From: a virus
Virus record (IMG/VR): IMGVR_UViG_3300050821_002380
Span: 1 to 55,564 of that record
Length of the DNA: 55,564 bases
Strand: one strand, 5' to 3'
The notes beneath the pieces are model-generated. The model did not search any database. It was not told the DNA's origin and saw only the letters and a program-made list of their open reading frames with translations. Below, piece after piece: positions 7,498-45,595 of this stretch. The translations under genes and the position numbers were made by a program. How positions within the stretch are numbered: position 1 is the stretch's first letter; each line of letters begins with the position of its first letter.

Positions 7498-8013
7498 ATG
7501 AGCATAATCGCCAAGAAAAACAAGCGTGAGTTTTCACCGGCTCCAGAAGGATTGCATTCGGCAGTTTGCTGCGATGTCGTTGACTTGGGGATGCAGCAGT
7601 CTCCGTGGGGCGAAGCACACAAAGTTGAAATTCGCTGGCAACTTGAAGAGAAGGACCCCAAGAGCGACAGACCATATATGGTCGTGAGCCGTTACACGTT
7701 GAGCTTGCATGAGAAATCCCGATTGCGTCCGATGCTTGAGGCATGGCGAGGCCGCAAATTCAACAACGACGAATTGGATGGATTTGACCTTGAAGCTCTT
7801 GTCGGAGTGAATTGCCAGATTCAGGTTTGCCACAACATCAAGGACGATGGAGAAGTTTTCGCCAACGTGCAGGCAGTTGTGGGACCGGAGCGAAATAGCG
7901 TCAAGCTGCGCGTGAACCCCGATTACATCCGCGTGCAAGACCGCGACCAGCAACGCAACGCTGGACATCCTGAGACGGGTTACCAAGCTCAAGACGAAGA
8001 TACGCCTTTTTAG
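7498..8013 (+). CDS. Phage single-stranded DNA-binding-like protein
   Basis: ATG 7498 is chosen because AAGGAG (7485-7490) is seven bases upstream. The 171-residue protein has an OB-fold-like core of alternating strands ('SAVCCDVVDLG', 'HKVEIRWQLEEKD', 'MVVSRYTLSL', 'GVNCQIQVCHN') and ends in DEDTPF. That tail resembles the acidic DDDIPF tip by which bacterial SSBs recruit partner proteins. It precedes the RecB-type nuclease, a common recombination pairing. It could instead be an SSB-like annealing partner. Confidence 0.65.
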   Translation: MSIIAKKNKREFSPAPEGLHSAVCCDVVDLGMQQSPWGEAHKVEIRWQLEEKDPKSDRPYMVVSRYTLSLHEKSRLRPMLEAWRGRKFNNDELDGFDLEALVGVNCQIQVCHNIKDDGEVFANVQAVVGPERNSVKLRVNPDYIRVQDRDQQRNAGHPETGYQAQDEDTPF

Positions 8014-8038
8014 CGTCACCGGAGACGGGAGATGAAAA

Positions 8039-8902
8039 ATGGACGTAACAATCGACGCAAGAAAACAAACAAAGGCGGGGCGCTTCTACGAGATAGACAA
8101 GCAGAGCGTCTACCCGAGCGTTACGAACATTCTGGGAGTCCTCAACAAGCCGCTATTGGTGCCGTGGGCGGCAAAAGTGGAACGGGAAGCGTCACTGGAA
8201 GCGGCAGCAGACCTCTACCACGATTGTTACGGAACCCCGAAGCTCTCACGGGTTGCCTGGATTTCGACGATGCAAATGCGGATGGGCAAGGTGAAGGCTC
8301 ACAAGAAGATTTTGGAGAAAGCTGGTGACATCGGGAGTCAGGCTCACAATTTGATTGAGTGGACGATTAAGGCCATGCTCTGCCATGAGGCGGGACCGTC
8401 GCCAAGAATCAGCCCTAAAGCGGAATGGGCATTTGCTGCTTGGGAGCGATGGGCAAATTCAGTTTCTTTCAAGCCGATTCTAGTAGAGCAAGTTGTATAC
8501 AGTCGCACCTACGGATTCGCCGGGACGCTTGACCTGTTTGCTGAGATAAACGGCAAACCCACGGTCGTTGATTGGAAAACAGGAAAGGCAGTTTATGCGG
8601 AGTCGCATTTGCAGAACGCCGCCTATCGTCACGCGCTCCGCGAGATGGGCCACGGCGACCCGGAGCAAGGAATCATCGTTCGCTTGCCCAAACTAGAAAA
8701 TGACCCAGAGTTTGAGGCGGTGGTTGCCGACGATGAAACGACTTCCTTCCCGATATTCTTGCACGCTTTTGAGTTATGGCGCTGGGCAGAAGTCAAGGAA
8801 GCGGAGTACCAGAGCCGTAAAGAGCTTGCCAGTGCGAACAACAGTGGCGCAGATGGCAAGGGAACGGGGGATACGCCGGGAAACGTGTCCCCCGCAGTAT
8901 AG
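8039..8902 (+). CDS. RecB/Cas4-type PD-(D/E)XK nuclease
   Basis: ATG 8039 lies about ten bases after GGGAG. The 287-residue protein has the N-terminal 'YPSVTNILGVLNKP' motif. The nuclease core has E150, D165 (AGTLDLF), D178-x-K180 (VVDWKTGK) and Q192-x3-Y196. These are the standard metal and catalytic residues of RecB-like exonucleases. With the adjacent SSB-like gene it probably forms a phage recombination module. The C-terminus is a low-complexity Gly/Asn tail. Confidence 0.85.
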   Translation: MDVTIDARKQTKAGRFYEIDKQSVYPSVTNILGVLNKPLLVPWAAKVEREASLEAAADLYHDCYGTPKLSRVAWISTMQMRMGKVKAHKKILEKAGDIGSQAHNLIEWTIKAMLCHEAGPSPRISPKAEWAFAAWERWANSVSFKPILVEQVVYSRTYGFAGTLDLFAEINGKPTVVDWKTGKAVYAESHLQNAAYRHALREMGHGDPEQGIIVRLPKLENDPEFEAVVADDETTSFPIFLHAFELWRWAEVKEAEYQSRKELASANNSGADGKGTGDTPGNVSPAV

Positions 8903-9074
8903 CCGAAGTGCGCTCGTATTGACCCCTAGGTGGCAAGGAATTGATTTGGGGGCCTTTGAACTTTCGTCCTAGCAAGCTCAGGGGCCTCGCACTATGCCGC
9001 TAGCGGTAGCAGGGTAGTACCAGGTTAAGGATTAGTTACAAACGGAACTTCTAGCCGGATGCGAGGGGGATGAG
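8903..9074. other. Intergenic stretch with palindromic repeat
   Basis: No gene seen. It contains a copy of the dispersed CTAG-type repeat at 8997-9014 and imperfect inverted repeats around 8927-8982 (CCTAGG/CCTAG). A weak transcriptional pause or processing site is possible. Confidence 0.35.
8997..9014. repeat. Dispersed CTAG repeat, copy 1
   Basis: CCGCTAGCGGTAGCAGGG, sharing CCGCTAGCGGTAGC exactly with copy 4 at 12366. Intergenic; can fold as a small CCGCTAGCGG palindrome. Confidence 0.5.
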
Positions 9075-9179
9075 ATGAAGTTTCCAGAACAATATCGGGC
9101 GCAGTATCCAAAGCTGGAATCTTCCTTTGGAGACGATTACGGTCTATTTCTCGCGCCCGGCGCTGGCAGGGGAGCTTGA
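9075..9179 (+). CDS. Small protein starting MKFPEQYR, possibly truncated (34 aa)
   Basis: A GAGGGGG site lies seven bases before ATG 9075. The N-terminus 'MKFPEQYR' resembles a family of conserved phage proteins that are normally longer. Here the frame ends after 34 residues, while another frame stays open to TGA at 9212. Either a genuine micropeptide or a frameshifted remnant. Confidence 0.35.
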   Translation: MKFPEQYRAQYPKLESSFGDDYGLFLAPGAGRGA

Positions 9180-9209
9180 AGTTCGCTCCGTGGCTGAGGA
9201 GACGAACAA

Positions 9210-9404
9210 GTGACCAATCGTGAGCCAAGATATGTTGCATGGCGCGTGGTGCCGTGCGAGAAGCGCCAGAAGCCGATTATCTACCGACTTAAGAAAGATG
9301 CGGTTACGAGAGCGATTGAGATAGACGGGACAGCTAATTGGCTTGTCGAGGGCCTGACGAAAGAACGGCTCGCTGCGTTGCGGGCTGAGGAGATGAAAAA
9401 GTGA
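9210..9404 (+). CDS. Hypothetical protein (64 aa)
   Basis: GTG 9210 has GAGGAG upstream. Beta strands ('RYVAWRVVPC', 'PIIYRLKKDA') are followed by a helix ending at LRAEEMKK. Overlaps the next GTG by four bases. No family recognised. Confidence 0.55.
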   Translation: MTNREPRYVAWRVVPCEKRQKPIIYRLKKDAVTRAIEIDGTANWLVEGLTKERLAALRAEEMKK

Positions 9405-9709
9405 GCGACTGGGTTAAGGCGATTGGATTTCTTCTATTCGCTGGCTTTCTCGCCTTTGCGATTGAACGCGCCGTTGCTGCACTCATGGAGGATTCAGGAC
9501 GCATGAACAAGGAAAAAGAACTCACAGCCGCCCTCACCCGCGCACAGGAACGGCTGGAAGCGGTGAAGAAGCTGGCGGAAAAGTGGATGCACCGCGGCTG
9601 GCCGGATTCCGACCTCAGCGAGATTGGCATAGCCTGTAGGGAACAGGCCAAAGAGCTGCTCGCCGCTCTCGCCGACAGCCCGCAGGCACGGGAAAAGAAA
9701 GCGCCATGA
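9401..9709 (+). CDS. Membrane-anchored coiled-coil protein (102 aa)
   Basis: GTG 9401 overlaps the previous stop. One N-terminal transmembrane helix (residues about 5-28) is followed by a charged coiled coil to the end. The N-in/C-out layout resembles an inner-membrane spanin-like protein, but it lies in the early region, far from the endolysin. Function unknown. Confidence 0.55.
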   Translation: MSDWVKAIGFLLFAGFLAFAIERAVAALMEDSGRMNKEKELTAALTRAQERLEAVKKLAEKWMHRGWPDSDLSEIGIACREQAKELLAALADSPQAREKKAP

Positions 9710-9885
9710 GGTGTCATTCTCGCCGGATAGTTCGTGAATGGCTTGAATGCGGATTCGAGATTCGCTGCCGTTTGCCGATGTTTCATCCAGGCAACCACGA
9801 TTTTCAATATTGGTCGTGGAGTAGGGGCAAGTTTTGGGAATGGGTTTTTGCTAGTCTAGCCGACAAGCGAGGGAGAATTAGATGA
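9706..9885 (+). CDS. Hypothetical basic Trp-rich protein (59 aa)
   Basis: ATG 9706 overlaps the previous TGA. The product is rich in Arg, Trp and Phe (WSWSRGKFWEWVF). ATGA overlap with the next gene indicates coupling. No family recognised. Confidence 0.5.
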   Translation: MRCHSRRIVREWLECGFEIRCRLPMFHPGNHDFQYWSWSRGKFWEWVFASLADKRGRIR

Positions 9886-10112
9886 AATTTAAGAATGAAA
9901 CCTCTGGGGATGTTATCGAAGTTCCGCCTCCCCGTTTCGGCAAGTCGAGCATTATTCTCAACGGAGAAGTTTTGTTCTTGGTCGAGTATTCGGACAATCC
10001 TACGTACGTTCGCGTGCTCAACGGGCCATCGTTCTCTGAACCAGAGAGATTCGCTGAATGGGTGGTTTCACTGATTGCGCCCGATGAGCCGCATTGGGTT
10101 AGTGCTAACTGA
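9882..10112 (+). CDS. Hypothetical beta-rich protein (76 aa)
   Basis: ATG 9882 overlaps the preceding stop. The predicted structure is a small beta barrel-like fold (KFKNETSGDVIEVPPP..., VLFLVEYSD) followed by a helix. Its stop codon lies inside a dispersed CTAG-type repeat. Function unknown. Confidence 0.55.
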   Translation: MKFKNETSGDVIEVPPPRFGKSSIILNGEVLFLVEYSDNPTYVRVLNGPSFSEPERFAEWVVSLIAPDEPHWVSAN

Positions 10113-10114
10113 GG
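10098..10114. repeat. Dispersed CTAG repeat, copy 2
   Basis: GTTAGTGCTAACTGAGG. The first 12 bases form a perfect inverted repeat (GTTAG-TG-CTAAC) and the TGA is the stop of the 9882 gene. Confidence 0.5.
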
Positions 10115-10297
10115 CTCCAAATTCTCGTAATCAACAATTTCAGGTTGCTGTTCGAGAATCGGAAGCTGCGGCAGCGATTGGCCGACAGCCGCGAAGGGGA
10201 GAAAGGGCGGTGAGCGTTTGGGGCACCCCGGTAATCAGTAGAGCAACATTGCATCTATCGCCATCGACAATCCATGAGGCTGGAGCGAAGGAAAAAG

Positions 10298-10549
10298 ATG
10301 AAAGAGCCGACCTACATCGCACGTTGCAAGCACGGCAAGATTCTTTTGGCGATCGTCCACGACCAACACTTCAACCGACAAGATTCGCGTGACTTAGCAA
10401 AGGCGATGGAGCGCGGGCTAATCGTCGAACACGTCGAAGCACAAGTCGTCCGAAGGGAAGGCGTCTGGGGCTGCGACAAGTGCCGCAAGAGACCCAGAAC
10501 AAAGCCGAAAAAACCTCTTGACACGGACGCGCAGGGGATTTTACTATGA
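10298..10549 (+). CDS. Small zinc-finger protein (83 aa)
   Basis: ATG 10298 is preferred to 10274 because GGAG and AAGGA lie just upstream. 'ARCKHGKILLAIVHD' and 'GVWGCDKCRKRP' provide CxH and CxxC ligands for one zinc. The C-terminus is basic. A promoter-like sequence overlaps its 3' end. Confidence 0.55.
   Translation: MKEPTYIARCKHGKILLAIVHDQHFNRQDSRDLAKAMERGLIVEHVEAQVVRREGVWGCDKCRKRPRTKPKKPLDTDAQGILL
10518..10547 (+). promoter_or_regulatory. Sigma70-like promoter inside gene end
   Basis: TTGACA (10518-10523), an 18-base spacer, then TACTAT (10542-10547). The -35 box is perfect and the -10 has four of six matches. It would transcribe the weakly coding 10550-10930 stretch and the following genes. 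Confidence 0.5.
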
Positions 10550-31502: not shown

Positions 31503-31786
31503 CCGACGATACGATCTACGCGAAGATGTGGGCGCAATTCGCTCACGAAGTCAAAGAGAGCGAGTCGAGAGCCTTTGCTAACTTGCGAGAGAACTTCGCG
31601 CTCCACGCCGCAGAACTCGTCCCCGACATTATGACCAACAAGGATTTAACCGATTCCGTGGAATGGTGTCAGTCGCACGTCAAGGTAGACCAAGCCGAGG
31701 GAAAGTCAGACCCGCTACAGATAATTTCGGATTGGATGAACGGCATAACGGAACTTTCGCGCATTCCGATGGAGAAAATTAGCTGA
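31499..31786 (+). CDS. Hypothetical helical protein (95 aa)
   Basis: GTG 31499 overlaps the previous stop by four bases; all-helical, acidic. Its last base is the first of the portal ATG. No family recognised. Confidence 0.55.
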   Translation: MTDDTIYAKMWAQFAHEVKESESRAFANLRENFALHAAELVPDIMTNKDLTDSVEWCQSHVKVDQAEGKSDPLQIISDWMNGITELSRIPMEKIS

Positions 31787-33522
31787 TGTCTGCTGCGCCA
31801 TTTCTTGTCACGGATTCCAAGACGCAGCAACAGCCATCGGTCGCCGCAGCCGACAAAAAAATCTCCCGCCAGATTGACCTCCTCGAAAGAATCTCCCGCG
31901 AAGAACGCGACCGTTGCAACGGCTCCAATGCTACGCAAGACATGCGTGAGTTTTTCACCCTCGAATACGCTCCTACCTCAACCGCGCTTTCCTTTCGTCC
32001 CCGCGTAATTCTCCCTGAGCTTCAGTATCTCGCGATGAGTGAGGCAACCGACCTCACAAACGACTCGCCTAAGTTTTACGTGAGCGTAAACGGCAAGCGA
32101 GATGAGCCGCGAGAAAAAGCGATGGAGTCTGCGTGGCGTGCTGGATGTTTCAACAACCGAATCTTCGATGCTGTGCTATGGTCGCAATTCTCGAATCCTT
32201 CTTGGCTGCAAGTCGGTTTCAACTCCGATGCGCGTGAAGGCAAAGGTTCGGTATGGCTCTCCTCGCGCGAGCCTGACACGGTAGACCCCGACCCGCGAGC
32301 CTCGGACGATAGAACGTGGTCATTCGTCAAGACGGACGACTGGTACTACCTCGACGAAATCCGGCGCATGTACCCGGAAAAAGGGCAACTCGTTCGCGCT
32401 GGCGGCGGTTACGACCAACCCTACGAAGAAACGGAAGGCAGCCGAGCGGGACTTGGATGGGAATTGCCGGAAGGCTCGCTTCGCATTGACCCGCCAGATG
32501 GATTTGAGAACTCGCATCAAGGCGCAAGGCTTCGCGTTCGTAGGCTATGGATTAAAGATTACGCGAAAGAAGCGGTCAGGGAACTTGCTGGCAACGTCAC
32601 CGCGCAAGGCATGGATTTGGTCGTTGAGCCAATTCTGAAGTACAAGTATCCGGGCGGCAGATTCATCACCGAATGCAACGGCATCATTCTTGCCGATGGC
32701 CCGAACTTCGTTCCTCGACTGCCGGAAGAAAACTTTGGCAGCTTTCCGGTCTGTCGATTGCAGTCCTTTCCCACGCTCAATCGCATGTACGGGCCGCCTC
32801 CGGTTCGCTACGGACGTTCGAGCCAAGAGAATGCGGAAATGATGTACCGCCAGTTGATTGAGAACATGATTCGCACCAACAATGCTCAATACTGGATTCC
32901 GAAAGAATCGGAAATCGACATTGACGCCTTCGGTGGCCTACCTGGGGAAGTTCAAGTCTATTCCGGCGATAAACCCCCCACCCTGACTTGGCCTTCCCCG
33001 ATTCCTCAGCACATGACGCAGATTCCAGACCTGCTGCTGGCAAAGGTGCAACGCTATCAGGGCTTCACCCAAGAGAGGCAAGGGCAGGCAGGACAGGGAA
33101 ACATTTCACCCGATCTGTTCGATGCCGCCGTGTTCCAGTCGCAGACATTGAATCGCATGAAGGCTCGCTTTCTCTCAGAGACGATTGGCCGTGTCGCGCA
33201 ACTGACTTTCTACATGATGGCGCGATTCAAGAATATCGAAGACCAGTACAAACCGTCTTTCAGCAAGAGTCGGCCAGCCTGTGTATGGACTCCGCTGCCG
33301 CATGATGCTGTATGCGAATTGCAGTTGGACGATGCGAGCGTGCAAGCACTTTCCACCAATGCGCTGCAAAAGATTGCGATGGCGCTGGCGAAGACTCCGG
33401 CTGCGCTTGGGTTGAAAGATTTGTACGATATTTTGCGGATGCCGAATGCAGACGAGTTGGCCGACGCCGCGACCAAACAGCAAGAGCTTGCAGCTGTGGC
33501 TCGCACGAAGAGGCCCCGCTAG
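31786..33522 (+). CDS. Portal protein
   Basis: ATG 31786 overlaps the previous TGA. The 578-residue protein has the podovirus portal pattern: helical N-terminus 'DKKISRQIDLLERISREERDR', 'RVILPELQYLAMSEATDLTNDSPKFYV', a central beta-rich wing, and the late helical 'QSQTLNRMKARFLSETIGRVAQLTFYMMARF'. It forms the dodecameric vertex gate for DNA. Position after the terminase supports the call. Family closeness to P22 or T7 type was not resolved. Confidence 0.85.
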   Translation: MSAAPFLVTDSKTQQQPSVAAADKKISRQIDLLERISREERDRCNGSNATQDMREFFTLEYAPTSTALSFRPRVILPELQYLAMSEATDLTNDSPKFYVSVNGKRDEPREKAMESAWRAGCFNNRIFDAVLWSQFSNPSWLQVGFNSDAREGKGSVWLSSREPDTVDPDPRASDDRTWSFVKTDDWYYLDEIRRMYPEKGQLVRAGGGYDQPYEETEGSRAGLGWELPEGSLRIDPPDGFENSHQGARLRVRRLWIKDYAKEAVRELAGNVTAQGMDLVVEPILKYKYPGGRFITECNGIILADGPNFVPRLPEENFGSFPVCRLQSFPTLNRMYGPPPVRYGRSSQENAEMMYRQLIENMIRTNNAQYWIPKESEIDIDAFGGLPGEVQVYSGDKPPTLTWPSPIPQHMTQIPDLLLAKVQRYQGFTQERQGQAGQGNISPDLFDAAVFQSQTLNRMKARFLSETIGRVAQLTFYMMARFKNIEDQYKPSFSKSRPACVWTPLPHDAVCELQLDDASVQALSTNALQKIAMALAKTPAALGLKDLYDILRMPNADELADAATKQQELAAVARTKRPR

Positions 33523-34259: not shown

Positions 34260-34295
34260 ATGCGACGTGGACGCCGCCGTATGCGCCGCAAGTAA
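34260..34295 (+). CDS. Arginine-rich micropeptide 1 (11 aa)
   Basis: GGAGG (34251-34255) lies four bases before ATG 34260; the frame encodes MRRGRRRMRRK and stops. Eight of eleven residues are basic. With the similar peptide at 34377 it shares CGACGTGGACG and CGCAAGTAA, so the two look like duplicates. It resembles the small DNA-condensing J proteins of microviruses; a regulatory leader peptide is the alternative. Confidence 0.45.
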   Translation: MRRGRRRMRRK

Positions 34296-34316
34296 CGCCA
34301 AGTTCGCAGATGTTCA

Positions 34317-34360
34317 CTCCTAGCGGCCTCTCCCTTTTGTTTTGGGGGATGCTAGGGGAG
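34317..34360 (+). other. Stem-loop upstream of micropeptide 2
   Basis: CTCCTAGC (34317-34324) pairs with GCTAGGGGAG (34351-34360) with a two-base bulge; an inner CTCTCCC/GGGGGA stem is possible. It ends just before the AAGGAGG of the next micropeptide and could control its translation or act as an attenuator. Confidence 0.4.
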
Positions 34361-34376
34361 AAAGGAGGCCGAAATT

Positions 34377-34421
34377 ATGGCACGACGTGGACGGAAACAC
34401 GGCCGACGCGGCCGCAAGTAA
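34377..34421 (+). CDS. Arginine-rich micropeptide 2 (14 aa)
   Basis: AAGGAGG lies about eight bases before ATG 34377, a strong site. The frame encodes MARRGRKHGRRGRK, eight of fourteen Arg/Lys plus one His. A paralogue of the 34260 peptide, with the same ending. Confidence 0.45.
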   Translation: MARRGRKHGRRGRK

Positions 34422-34467
34422 CTCAGACCTGTCAGGGCGTGAAGGCTGAGTAACAAGAATCGGCTGG

Positions 34468-34485
34468 GGGCAGGGGAACCTGCCC
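34468..34485 (+). terminator. Stable hairpin with GGAA tetraloop
   Basis: GGGCAGG pairs perfectly with CCTGCCC around a GGAA (GNRA) loop. No U tract follows, so this is a terminator-like or protective structure between the micropeptides and the 34505 gene. Confidence 0.4.
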
Positions 34486-34504
34486 TTAGCACTTTGAGGT
34501 AGAA

Positions 34505-34690
34505 ATGGCAGAGCGATTGAATATCCGGCAAATTGACGAAAACAGGGAAATCGTCCGAGACAACGCTTTGGATGATTCCACGCAACCCGCCGTCGCTGAT
34601 TGTGACGCGGATTGGCCGGATGCGGTGTATCGCACGATGCCGAAGGATTACGTTGGGTTTTTGCCTCCCAACGCGAGAGGAAAACGCTGA
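34505..34690 (+). CDS. Hypothetical acidic protein (61 aa)
   Basis: GAGG before ATG 34505. Acidic, with 'RQIDENREIVRDNALDDSTQP' and a Pro-rich end. Overlaps the next gene by one base. No family recognised. Confidence 0.55.
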   Translation: MAERLNIRQIDENREIVRDNALDDSTQPAVADCDADWPDAVYRTMPKDYVGFLPPNARGKR

Positions 34691-35268: not shown

Positions 35269-36090
35269 ATGGCAGGAATAGATTTCAGCAAGATTTTGGC
35301 GGACAAGGAAACCTACAAAGACGATTTGACCTTGCGCTTCAAGGATGCTGACGGCTCCGAGCGCGAAGTGCCGCTTGGGGATTTTCGCTCTCTGACCTCG
35401 CGTGAACAAAAGGAACTGTCCGACCGCATCGCTGACGCGCAAGCAAGAGAAACGGAAGCCTCGAAGCGTTTCGAGTCTGCCGACAATCTCGGCAAGCAAG
35501 CCGCAAAAGTTTTGGCTGACATCGAAGAACTAAAAAAGAACACGCGCACTGCCGCTCCGGGCGAAGACCCATTCAATGACCCGTGGCTCGCTCCCGTGAA
35601 AGAAGCCCTCAGCAAGCGCGATGCGGAAATCGCGGACCTCAAAAAACTTGTCGCCAGCGGGCAAGCCACCTTACAGCAAGCGGCGCAAATCTTCCTCAAG
35701 AATAACTGGAAGTCCGAATACAACTCGCTCAACTTCGGCAACACCTCGAAGAAACCAACCCGCGATGAACTGGTGAAGTATGCCGCCACAAACAAACTCA
35801 CGGATGAAGATGGCATTCCCTCGATCTCTCGCGCGTGGGAAGAAATGAGCCGCGCCGACCGGGAAGAGGCAACCAAGAAAGAAGCCTACGAACGTGGTCT
35901 GGAAGCGGGACGCATCGCTGCCGCAGCCAATCGCGTGACTCAACCGGGCGTACCGGGAAGCGGCGGGCCAGCAGCGCCAGTCAAGACCAATCCGGGCGAA
36001 TTGCCCGACCTTTTCACAGAAGGAATGAAAGACCCGGAGATTCGCGGACTGCTACAGCAGCTTGCCGAAGCCGGGATTCCGATGTCGTAG
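35269..36090 (+). CDS. Scaffold-type protein
   Basis: The 273-residue protein is strongly charged and helical over most of its length ('REQKELSDRIADAQARETEASKR'), with Gly/Pro linkers late and an 'ELPDLFTEGMKDPEIRGLLQQL' C-terminus. Such composition, and its place just before the capsid gene, are typical of phage scaffold proteins that template the prohead and leave. The homing-type HNH gene separates it from the capsid gene. Confidence 0.65.
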   Translation: MAGIDFSKILADKETYKDDLTLRFKDADGSEREVPLGDFRSLTSREQKELSDRIADAQARETEASKRFESADNLGKQAAKVLADIEELKKNTRTAAPGEDPFNDPWLAPVKEALSKRDAEIADLKKLVASGQATLQQAAQIFLKNNWKSEYNSLNFGNTSKKPTRDELVKYAATNKLTDEDGIPSISRAWEEMSRADREEATKKEAYERGLEAGRIAAAANRVTQPGVPGSGGPAAPVKTNPGELPDLFTEGMKDPEIRGLLQQLAEAGIPMS

Positions 36091-36113
36091 TAAAATTGGC
36101 GTCGGAGGTTTCG

Positions 36114-36665
36114 ATGCCACACAAAGACCCAGCGGTACGGAAGGCGTTTAATAGGATTTGGTACGAAAAGAACAAAGTGAGAATTCTAGCGCGCATGAAG
36201 GAACGCAAAGACGAAATCAATGTGGTGAAACGTGCTCGCTACCAAACAAATAAGGTAGTGATTCTTGCCAAGATGAGAGCGTATCAGGAAAAGAACAAGA
36301 ACCGAGTCGCTGCATGGCAGAAAAAAGGCTCCGCTAAGTATCGAATTAAGATGCGCGATGCAATTTTGCAGGCTTATGGAAATAAATGTCAGTGCTGCGG
36401 CGAGACGGAGAAGGACTTTTTGACTCTGGACCATGTCGGCGGGTGGGGAGCGCGTCATCGCAGAGAAGAAGGATGGAAGGCTCGCGGCCATAGTCTCTAC
36501 AAACGAATCATCGAAGCAGATTTTCCGAAAGACAAGTTTCGTTTGCTTTGTATGAACTGTAATTTTGCCATTCGTCTTGGCGGAACATGCCCGCACGAAT
36601 CGGAAAGATTACAGGCTAGGATGTACGAGGAAAATTTCGAATGTGCCCGCGAAGCTGCGGGGTAG
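36114..36665 (+). CDS. HNH homing-type endonuclease
   Basis: CGGAGG precedes ATG 36114. The 183-residue protein has a basic N-terminal half of two related helices (KNKVRILARMKERKDE / TNKVVILAKMRAYQEKN). A zinc HNH follows: 'GNKCQCCGETEKDFLTLDHV' (C92, C95, D106-H107), 'LLCMNCNFAIRLGGTCPH' (C146, C149). Homing endonucleases cut alleles lacking them and spread. It sits between scaffold and capsid genes as a free-standing insertion, probably without harming either. Confidence 0.85.
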   Translation: MPHKDPAVRKAFNRIWYEKNKVRILARMKERKDEINVVKRARYQTNKVVILAKMRAYQEKNKNRVAAWQKKGSAKYRIKMRDAILQAYGNKCQCCGETEKDFLTLDHVGGWGARHRREEGWKARGHSLYKRIIEADFPKDKFRLLCMNCNFAIRLGGTCPHESERLQARMYEENFECAREAAG

Positions 36666-44458: not shown

Positions 44459-45595
44459 ATGGGCGCACTCGGCAGAGCACTCGGAAATTTCGGTTCGCAA
44501 GTTGGCGAAGGCTATGACATTTCGCAACAGTGGAAGCGCCAGTCTTCGGAACTCGCTATGCAACAGGCGAGACAGAAGCTCGCTGAGTTGATGGCCCCCC
44601 TTCAGCTGGCCGAATTGCAGCAACGCATCGCGTCTCAAAAACAGAGCCAAGAACTCGCGCCGTGGATTGAGTATTCAGAGAAAAAGCCTGACGGCTCAAT
44701 TGAAAAAGGACTCTACAACCAACTCACAAAAGAGCGCAGGCCTTACGCGACGGATTCTCCCGGCATTGCCAAGTACACAGGGATGCGCGTCAGTGAAGAT
44801 GGAAAACTCTATGGCATAAATTCCATCACGGGAAAGGAAGAACAGATTCCCGGCTCAGAGGGAACTGAATTCCCCGTTACTGGTAGCAACCAGCGGCCTC
44901 AGATTACTTCGGGGCCACCGATCAAAGGTGAGTTGATTGGCAAGCCGAAAGGGACGTTTTGGAAGTCCATCGTAGACGGCGCTGGAAACACGATAGGCTA
45001 TACGCAAACTGGCGCTCCTACGCCTCACGTTGGCGCTGGCGGGGCCGCAGCCGTTAGCCCTCAACAGCTAGATGCCCTCGTTCAAGGTATCGCCGCTGGC
45101 ACGGCCAGAATGCCAACAGGAAAGCTCGCGGCTCAAGTATTGTCTCGCGCGGCGCAGATGGGCGTGACGTTGCCAAACGTGAACGCGGCTTCGATTCTGA
45201 ATCCACTCGCGCGAAATCTCTACAACGTGCAGTCCATGTTGCCCGCAGCGCAGCGGGCGGCAGCGAATCCTGAGTCACCGCAAAATAGCATGGCTCTGGT
45301 AAGCATCGCCGATAAGCTCGAAGGGGGAAGCGGTCAGAAGCAAGCACTCATGGCGGCTGGAAAGCCTTTCACTTTATTCGGCACATCTTTTGGAACGGCA
45401 GGGAAGGGAACTCTTTCACCGCAAGAGGCGCAGTCTCTTTTACAGTTAATCCAATCACGGGTGAGCGGTGACATTCAGCAACTCAATGACACGTATCGGC
45501 AGCTTGGGATGACCCCACCACCGCCGCTTGCGAATGCGCCGAATACCAACACGACCGTGCCGCCACCTCCACCGGGATACGTGATTCAACCCTAA
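44459..45595 (+). CDS. Putative internal virion protein 3 (378 aa)
   Basis: ATG 44459. Coiled N-terminus ('MQQARQKLAELMAPLQLAELQQRI'), a beta-rich middle and a helical C-terminus, then Pro-rich sequence. Overlaps the next start. Part of the same internal-protein group. Confidence 0.5.
   Translation: MGALGRALGNFGSQVGEGYDISQQWKRQSSELAMQQARQKLAELMAPLQLAELQQRIASQKQSQELAPWIEYSEKKPDGSIEKGLYNQLTKERRPYATDSPGIAKYTGMRVSEDGKLYGINSITGKEEQIPGSEGTEFPVTGSNQRPQITSGPPIKGELIGKPKGTFWKSIVDGAGNTIGYTQTGAPTPHVGAGGAAAVSPQQLDALVQGIAAGTARMPTGKLAAQVLSRAAQMGVTLPNVNAASILNPLARNLYNVQSMLPAAQRAAANPESPQNSMALVSIADKLEGGSGQKQALMAAGKPFTLFGTSFGTAGKGTLSPQEAQSLLQLIQSRVSGDIQQLNDTYRQLGMTPPPPLANAPNTNTTVPPPPPGYVIQP

Follow-up and report, generated by a model that had tools for sequence, protein, structure and literature searches.

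The window analysed here is an entire virus record of 55,564 nt, and it contains two very small, strongly basic genes on its plus strand. Micro-gene A (34260-34295, +; codons ATG CGA CGT GGA CGC CGC CGT ATG CGC CGC AAG TAA) encodes the 11-aa peptide MRRGRRRMRRK, of charge +8, and the sequence 5' of it is TGAGGAGGATTT, in which the Shine-Dalgarno (SD) motif GAGGAGG lies just upstream of the start. Micro-gene B (34377-34421, +; codons ATG GCA CGA CGT GGA CGG AAA CAC GGC CGA CGC GGC CGC AAG TAA) encodes the 14-aa peptide MARRGRKHGRRGRK, also of charge +8, and is preceded by GAAAGGAGGCCGAAATT, with AAAGGAGG as the ribosome-binding stretch. The two genes share the DNA (G)CGACGTGGACG close to their starts and CCGCAAGTAA at their stops. 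Between them is a stem-loop (34317-34361), and a hairpin with a GGAA loop of the GNRA type is located 3' of B (34462-34490, +), 5' of the ribosome-binding site of the next ORF; the fold z-score for 34422-34510 was -2.9. The original prediction had described two tiny frames with strong ribosome binding sites, the shared DNA, and both hairpins, and each of these was present. In relatives, a G/C-rich hairpin also occupies the place of the 34462-34490 hairpin and is possibly another translational element.

The two frames had been placed between portal and scaffold genes. The portal assignment was upheld by a weak match of the gene at 31786-33522 (+), the upstream anchor of the locus, to the SU10 portal family (Pfam PF23899, SU10_portal; E value 5e-6, below the curated cut-off), while the ORF termed scaffold had no family match and is so called only from its location before the major head protein (PHROG 9953). 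Other genes of the window identified by profile were a terminase (PHROG 2) and an adaptor (weak match). Three further small ORFs of 61, 60, and 127 aa separate B from the scaffold ORF, the first of which (34505-34690, +) is kept in close relatives and has no family; the small ORFs neighbouring the micropeptides are acidic or of mixed charge. In the interval between the scaffold and the major head protein, an ORF at 35835-36665 (+) with the HNH-like motif CQCC..LDHVGG..C..CNF probably encodes a homing-type endonuclease; its listed start overlaps the scaffold frame, and the true start is likely near 36113. The region resembles that of phage SU10 and Kuravirus in the weak matches of portal and adaptor to SU10 families and in the terminase-portal-scaffold-capsid gene order, but in SU10, from which the nearest named portal family comes, a single gene of 78 aa separates portal from scaffold and leaves no room for basic micro-ORFs.

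Across both strands of the window, A and B are the sole SD-led ORFs of 9-30 codons whose net charge per residue reaches 0.4; under a first-order Markov null (charge threshold 0.5), 0.025 such ORFs were expected per 55.6-kb window. Chance ORFs are numerous in the window, and the length of A and B is unremarkable when taken alone. Relatives were found by portal searches of IMG/VR, with the close set having 54-60% portal identity. Both genes, each led by an SD, were found at the same place in almost every close relative that covers the post-portal stretch (about two dozen), with A orthologs of 15-28 aa (e.g., MARKKGRGSMNTKQAGRHPGSRKAGRY, MAKKRSSGKMKNTRMAKRGVRY, and MRKHSRRGRRRGMRY) and B orthologs of 12-21 aa (e.g., MARRRGRHSKRK, MAKRRGRHAKRK, MARHRGRKAKRR, MARRKGRHSKRHGRK, and MIDNDFVVKNRRRRARHSKRK); three micro-ORFs occur in a row in L026 and L027. 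The distant set comprised 80 further loci whose portals are less similar. Flanks were usable for 68 of these, and the 1.4 kb after their portals contained 170 basic SD-led micro-ORFs on the coding strand versus 4 on the reverse strand. In about 65 phages of this distant kind, 1-4 basic micropeptides of 11-48 aa are encoded there (e.g., MARRKRHSKRK, MARRHRKEKKRK, MASRGGRRSTRRRRTAARK, and MKMTSKIARMTHKVDRRVGKKRK). The positional counterpart of B in L044, L045, and L048 is 42-47 aa long and ends in ..RHGRKSSRH, ..RKHSRKSSRK, or ..MSRHSSRK, and acidic stretches are present in the longer members in L045 and L048. Genes resembling A and B are found at the same spot in about 90 related uncultured phages.

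No micropeptides were found at this place in L095 and L129. In the close relative L005, the portal is followed by an ORF (7710-10314) for a secreted, adhesin-like product of 781 aa, and the 34-kb record has no micropeptide locus, either through a rearrangement of the head module or because the record is a fragment. In view of these loci the peptides are not strictly required at this place. Among cultured phages, neither a portal tblastn search of 50,697 phage records nor a peptide tblastn search returned a match. CRP-7, ctuNt529, and HelliStehle were reached through terminase matches at about 24-29%, and ctMlz233 and 45A6 through capsid matches; the stretches fetched for these five showed no such micro-ORFs downstream of the portal or in the surroundings of the matched head gene. 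A portal scan of genome contigs yielded no match that would link the phages to a prophage or host. A PHROG profile scan of the longer micropeptides gave no convincing family (best E value 0.34), such lengths giving little power, a PDB search with the A-family profile gave no match, and no report of such peptides was found in open-licence papers.

Codon-level comparison of the orthologs indicated selection on the encoded peptides. For B, 352 of 532 codon differences were synonymous (13 distinct 13-codon sequences), versus 44 of 601 and 30 of 602 in the other two frames (5-7%), and changes at the three codon positions numbered 230/150/492, the third position changing most. For A, the corresponding fractions were 294 of 473 versus 18 of 485 and 39 of 464. 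These counts are pairwise and so not independent, but the frames differ strongly. In relatives, synonymous Arg codons replace one another freely, the C-terminus of the peptide is conserved, and Arg, Lys, and His interchange freely with the charge kept (MARRRGRHSKRK, MAKRRGRHAKRK, MARHRGRKAKRR, and MARHKVRKSRRK), which identifies charge as the conserved property. A proposed check had been that both frames and their Arg content are conserved in related phages; the frames are kept, and the Arg content is not, Arg being replaced by Lys or His. On the basis of same-locus conservation, codon-level selection, and the dedicated RNA element described below, A and B are almost certainly real protein genes of the translated type, in line with the original prediction.

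The two genes had also been described as duplicated. The A and B peptides of relatives differ from each other, with A ending in ..GRY and B in ..HSKRK, so they are not simply recent copies, and a recent duplication of A from B was rejected as unsupported given these distinct C-termini; what stands of the claim is that the C-terminus of A in the window is B-like. The 11-mer common to A and B may reflect convergence of Arg codons or local conversion.

A conserved RNA element (34317-34379, +) precedes B and ends at its start codon. It consists of stem P1 (CUCCUAGC:GCUAGGGG), an inner hairpin P2, and the 5' internal loop GGCCUC. All close relatives have a hairpin between A and B that ends at the SD of B, with the layout P1 (e.g., UCCGGG/CCCGGA), 5' loop GGUCUC/GGACUC, P2, 3' loop UG, P1', a short linker, and GGAGAC/GGAGUC. 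The internal-loop strand (34325-34330, +) is predicted to pair with GAGGCC (34365-34370, +), a part of AGGAGGCC in the SD region of B, for which the window contains the 7-nt complement CGGCCTC. The loop:SD pairs are GGCCUC:GAGGCC in the window and GUCUC:GAGAC or GACUC:GAGUC in relatives, and this pairing was chosen unprompted by RNAalifold on the first alignment. In the structure so named, 96% of cells were paired, 9 pairs had changes on both sides, and 42 double-change cells were observed versus 12.5 in shuffles; the covariation score was 0.451 versus 0.164 in shuffles and 0.01-0.10 when the partners were slid. P1 was 98% paired, with double changes in five of its six pairs. In the loop:SD helix, one strongly varying pair occurs as UA, AU, or, in the window, CG. 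On the portal tree these states do not form one clade (GA-UC is found in L002 and L003, apart from the L016-L041 group, and GC-GC only in the window), which implies at least two compensatory changes. The CUC:GAG core is invariant and uninformative alone, as an SD is expected there anyway. The longest loop:SD complement per sequence was 6.0 nt versus 4.8 nt in other genes, a modest excess, and the single-sequence fold of the hairpin was not unusually stable (z about -1). The case for loop:SD pairing is one of covariation, which in the pseudoknot concerns one strongly varying pair.

A covariance model, R1, was built from 17 relatives with the window left out, and it found window positions 34317-34379 with an E value of 3.7e-7, the next best match being at 0.09. 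This second match (44744-44813, +) ends at an ATG in the tail module and is probably due to chance. R1 matched 19 of 19 close-clade loci covering the place, most of them R1's own sequences, and gave one strong match per genome (12 records), always at this place; no copy was found upstream of A or A orthologs. A pattern scan of IMG/VR added one more contig, L070, in which the element precedes MAKGKHHGVRRSRKSHRK. Rfam gave no window match at the gathering score, and at E values up to 5 there were none or weak matches at chance level. In L012, L013, and L024, about 450-520 nt separate A and B and the hairpin remains directly before B, so the element belongs to B. The inserts in L012 (8850-9293, -) and L024 (8268-8645, -) contain ORFs of 125-147 aa with the motif CxxC..HGHHYRGY..CxxCH, putative HNH-type homing endonucleases, and similar sequence recurs elsewhere between genes in L011, L014, and L019. 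A terminator function of the stem-loop was rejected, as it has no U-run, and no terminator-like site was found in the A-B interval. Judged from these comparisons, the stem-loop between A and B is not incidental, being a conserved element predicted to pair with the SD of B. It has no Rfam family and is a new finding here, and it very probably acts on the translation of B.

Comparable hairpins were found in distant relatives. In one distant clade, an SRGGRR-type peptide is preceded by a hairpin whose constant loop, CCUUCGC, is complementary to GCGAAGG overlapping the SD (34 of 34 ORFs). The stems of this clade covary (GGAGACG:CGUCUCC, GUCAGGGA:UCCCUGAC, GUGAGCGA:UCGCUCAC, and GGAGAGU:ACUCUCC), with 10 double-change cells versus 2.1. 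Both loop and SD are invariant, and it is this invariance that points to their pairing. In L134 and L151, loop:SD complements (GUUUGCUC:GAGCAAAC and UUUUGCUC:GAGCAAAA) occur in an R1-like layout. A loop:SD hairpin thus appears to be a recurring design, for which distant relatives use other sequences. In L049 (8044-8150), L089, L090, L091, and L140 of the distant clade, a second small basic ORF of 34-42 aa (..KDYGKPGKFLRTMRAK..) was noted after the first basic peptide and before the SRGGRR one.

The reading preferred here, to which we give about an even chance, is that the peptides are polycationic nucleic-acid-binding products of the head-gene cluster and that the output of B is limited by a pseudoknot that sequesters its SD. 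A and B would belong to a family of polycationic micropeptides whose genes, 1-4 in succession, separate portal from scaffold in a sizeable group of uncultured tailed phages, and which are produced alongside the head-assembly proteins. The peptides most likely bind nucleic acid through their charge, and such binding is, somewhat more probably than otherwise, their function. From the location among head genes we infer a role in DNA packaging: the probable target would be phage DNA during or around packaging, with the peptides as counter-ions or condensing agents. Their presence in virions is a lesser prospect, short of even. Pairing of the internal loop of the hairpin with the SD of B would form a pseudoknot that hides the ribosome-binding site and lowers the yield of B. 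Once the DNA is saturated, excess free peptide could stabilise the RNA fold, as in the case of T4 gp32, and such autoregulation of B is offered tentatively, by analogy. In well-studied tailed phages, small cations neutralise the packaged DNA and dedicated peptides are not known to do so, which counts against a packaging role.

Several known systems bear on this reading. In T4, a pseudoknot nucleates gp32 binding upstream of the ribosome-binding site. Like T4 gene 32, where a phage mRNA pseudoknot controls the translation of a nucleic-acid-binding protein (PMC3014915, PMC535899), the present locus combines a predicted mRNA pseudoknot with a product predicted to bind nucleic acid; here, in contrast, the SD itself is inside the predicted pairing, and the sequences are unrelated. 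Of the features of a translational-operator pseudoknot, a covarying stem and compensatory loop:SD change, the latter in the single strongly varying pair, were both observed. The original prediction had likened the peptides to microvirus J proteins. The J protein of phiX174 is described as binding DNA, coating the RF form and guiding the genome that is packaged (PMC13386984), and A and B (11 and 14 aa, +8 each) are similarly very small, polycationic, and neighbours of capsid genes. Microviruses, however, are ssDNA viruses with one such peptide, whereas the present genome has a dsDNA tailed-phage gene set (terminase, portal, and head protein), and it and its relatives have 1-4 peptides of 11-48 aa in a row and an RNA element predicted to pair with the SD. 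By analogy, A and B may work like small basic viral DNA-binding peptides without being members of the J family, given the other virus class. Short Arg-dense peptides that condense the genomes of DNA viruses include baculovirus P6.9 and adenovirus mu. These are similarly protamine-like, but they belong to eukaryotic viruses, and mu is cut from a precursor while A and B are separate ORFs. It is plausible that the peptides condense or enter packaged DNA in a J-like manner, an idea that would fit the conserved polycation, the head-gene cluster, and the Lys/Arg interchange.

Alternatively, the peptides may be regulators of the arginine-rich-motif type, of lambda N-like size and charge, that bind a specific phage RNA such as the hairpin before B and control late translation or transcription. 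Their size and charge match arginine-rich RNA-binding peptides, the gene adjoins a structured and conserved RNA whose internal loop is asymmetric, and different peptide lineages have different hairpins. The element, however, occurs once per genome, where a global antiterminator would need other sites, and none was found before A or its orthologs; moreover, drift of the peptide sequence with the charge kept suits non-specific binding better, and this explanation is considered unlikely. A role as head-assembly cofactors, in which the peptides would be short basic linkers that attach to an acidic partner (the scaffold, the portal, or the inside of the capsid) and nucleic-acid binding would not be their main activity, would agree with the constant portal-scaffold location, the acidic or mixed charge of the nearby small ORFs, and the acidic stretches in L045 and L048; very low sequence constraint apart from charge and the occurrence of several different basic peptides in a row make it unlikely. 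Arginine-sensing or other leader peptides, in which the speed of Arg-codon translation controls downstream genes and the peptide itself is unused, had been put forward with some reason, as the frames are very short, Arg-dense, led by a strong SD, and followed by stem-loops. This reading is now very improbable: the free replacement of Arg by Lys or His argues against arginine sensing, amino acids are under purifying selection with a conserved C-terminus and free synonymous change among Arg codons, no terminator-type attenuator was found in the A-B interval, the downstream genes are structural head genes, and B counterparts reach 42-47 aa. An amino-acid attenuation leader was likewise rejected, as no run of codons for one amino acid is kept in relatives and the A-B interval has no terminator-like site, nor do biosynthetic or transport genes follow. 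An origin of A and B as chance ORFs of GC-rich DNA, which the unremarkable length would allow, is refuted almost beyond doubt by the Markov null, the conservation across phages, and the codon-level selection.

The length limits of gene callers exclude genes of 11-20 codons, so that annotation and PHROGs alike seem to lack a conserved family that scores of phages encode. The RNA element before B, small and with clear covariation, is a candidate translational switch for a 14-codon gene and a convenient model of an SD-sequestering pseudoknot. On the preferred reading of head-cluster nucleic-acid-binding peptides, tailed phages may make protamine-like peptides, and if these bind packaged DNA, the view that tailed-phage genomes are neutralised by small cations only needs an exception. 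The fullest form of this reading, that sets of protamine-like micropeptides are packaged with or condense dsDNA and are dosed by a self-sensing SD-pseudoknot in widespread uncultured tailed phages, is doubtful at present; if true, it would represent an unrecognised nucleoprotein strategy of tailed phages together with new families of regulatory RNA.
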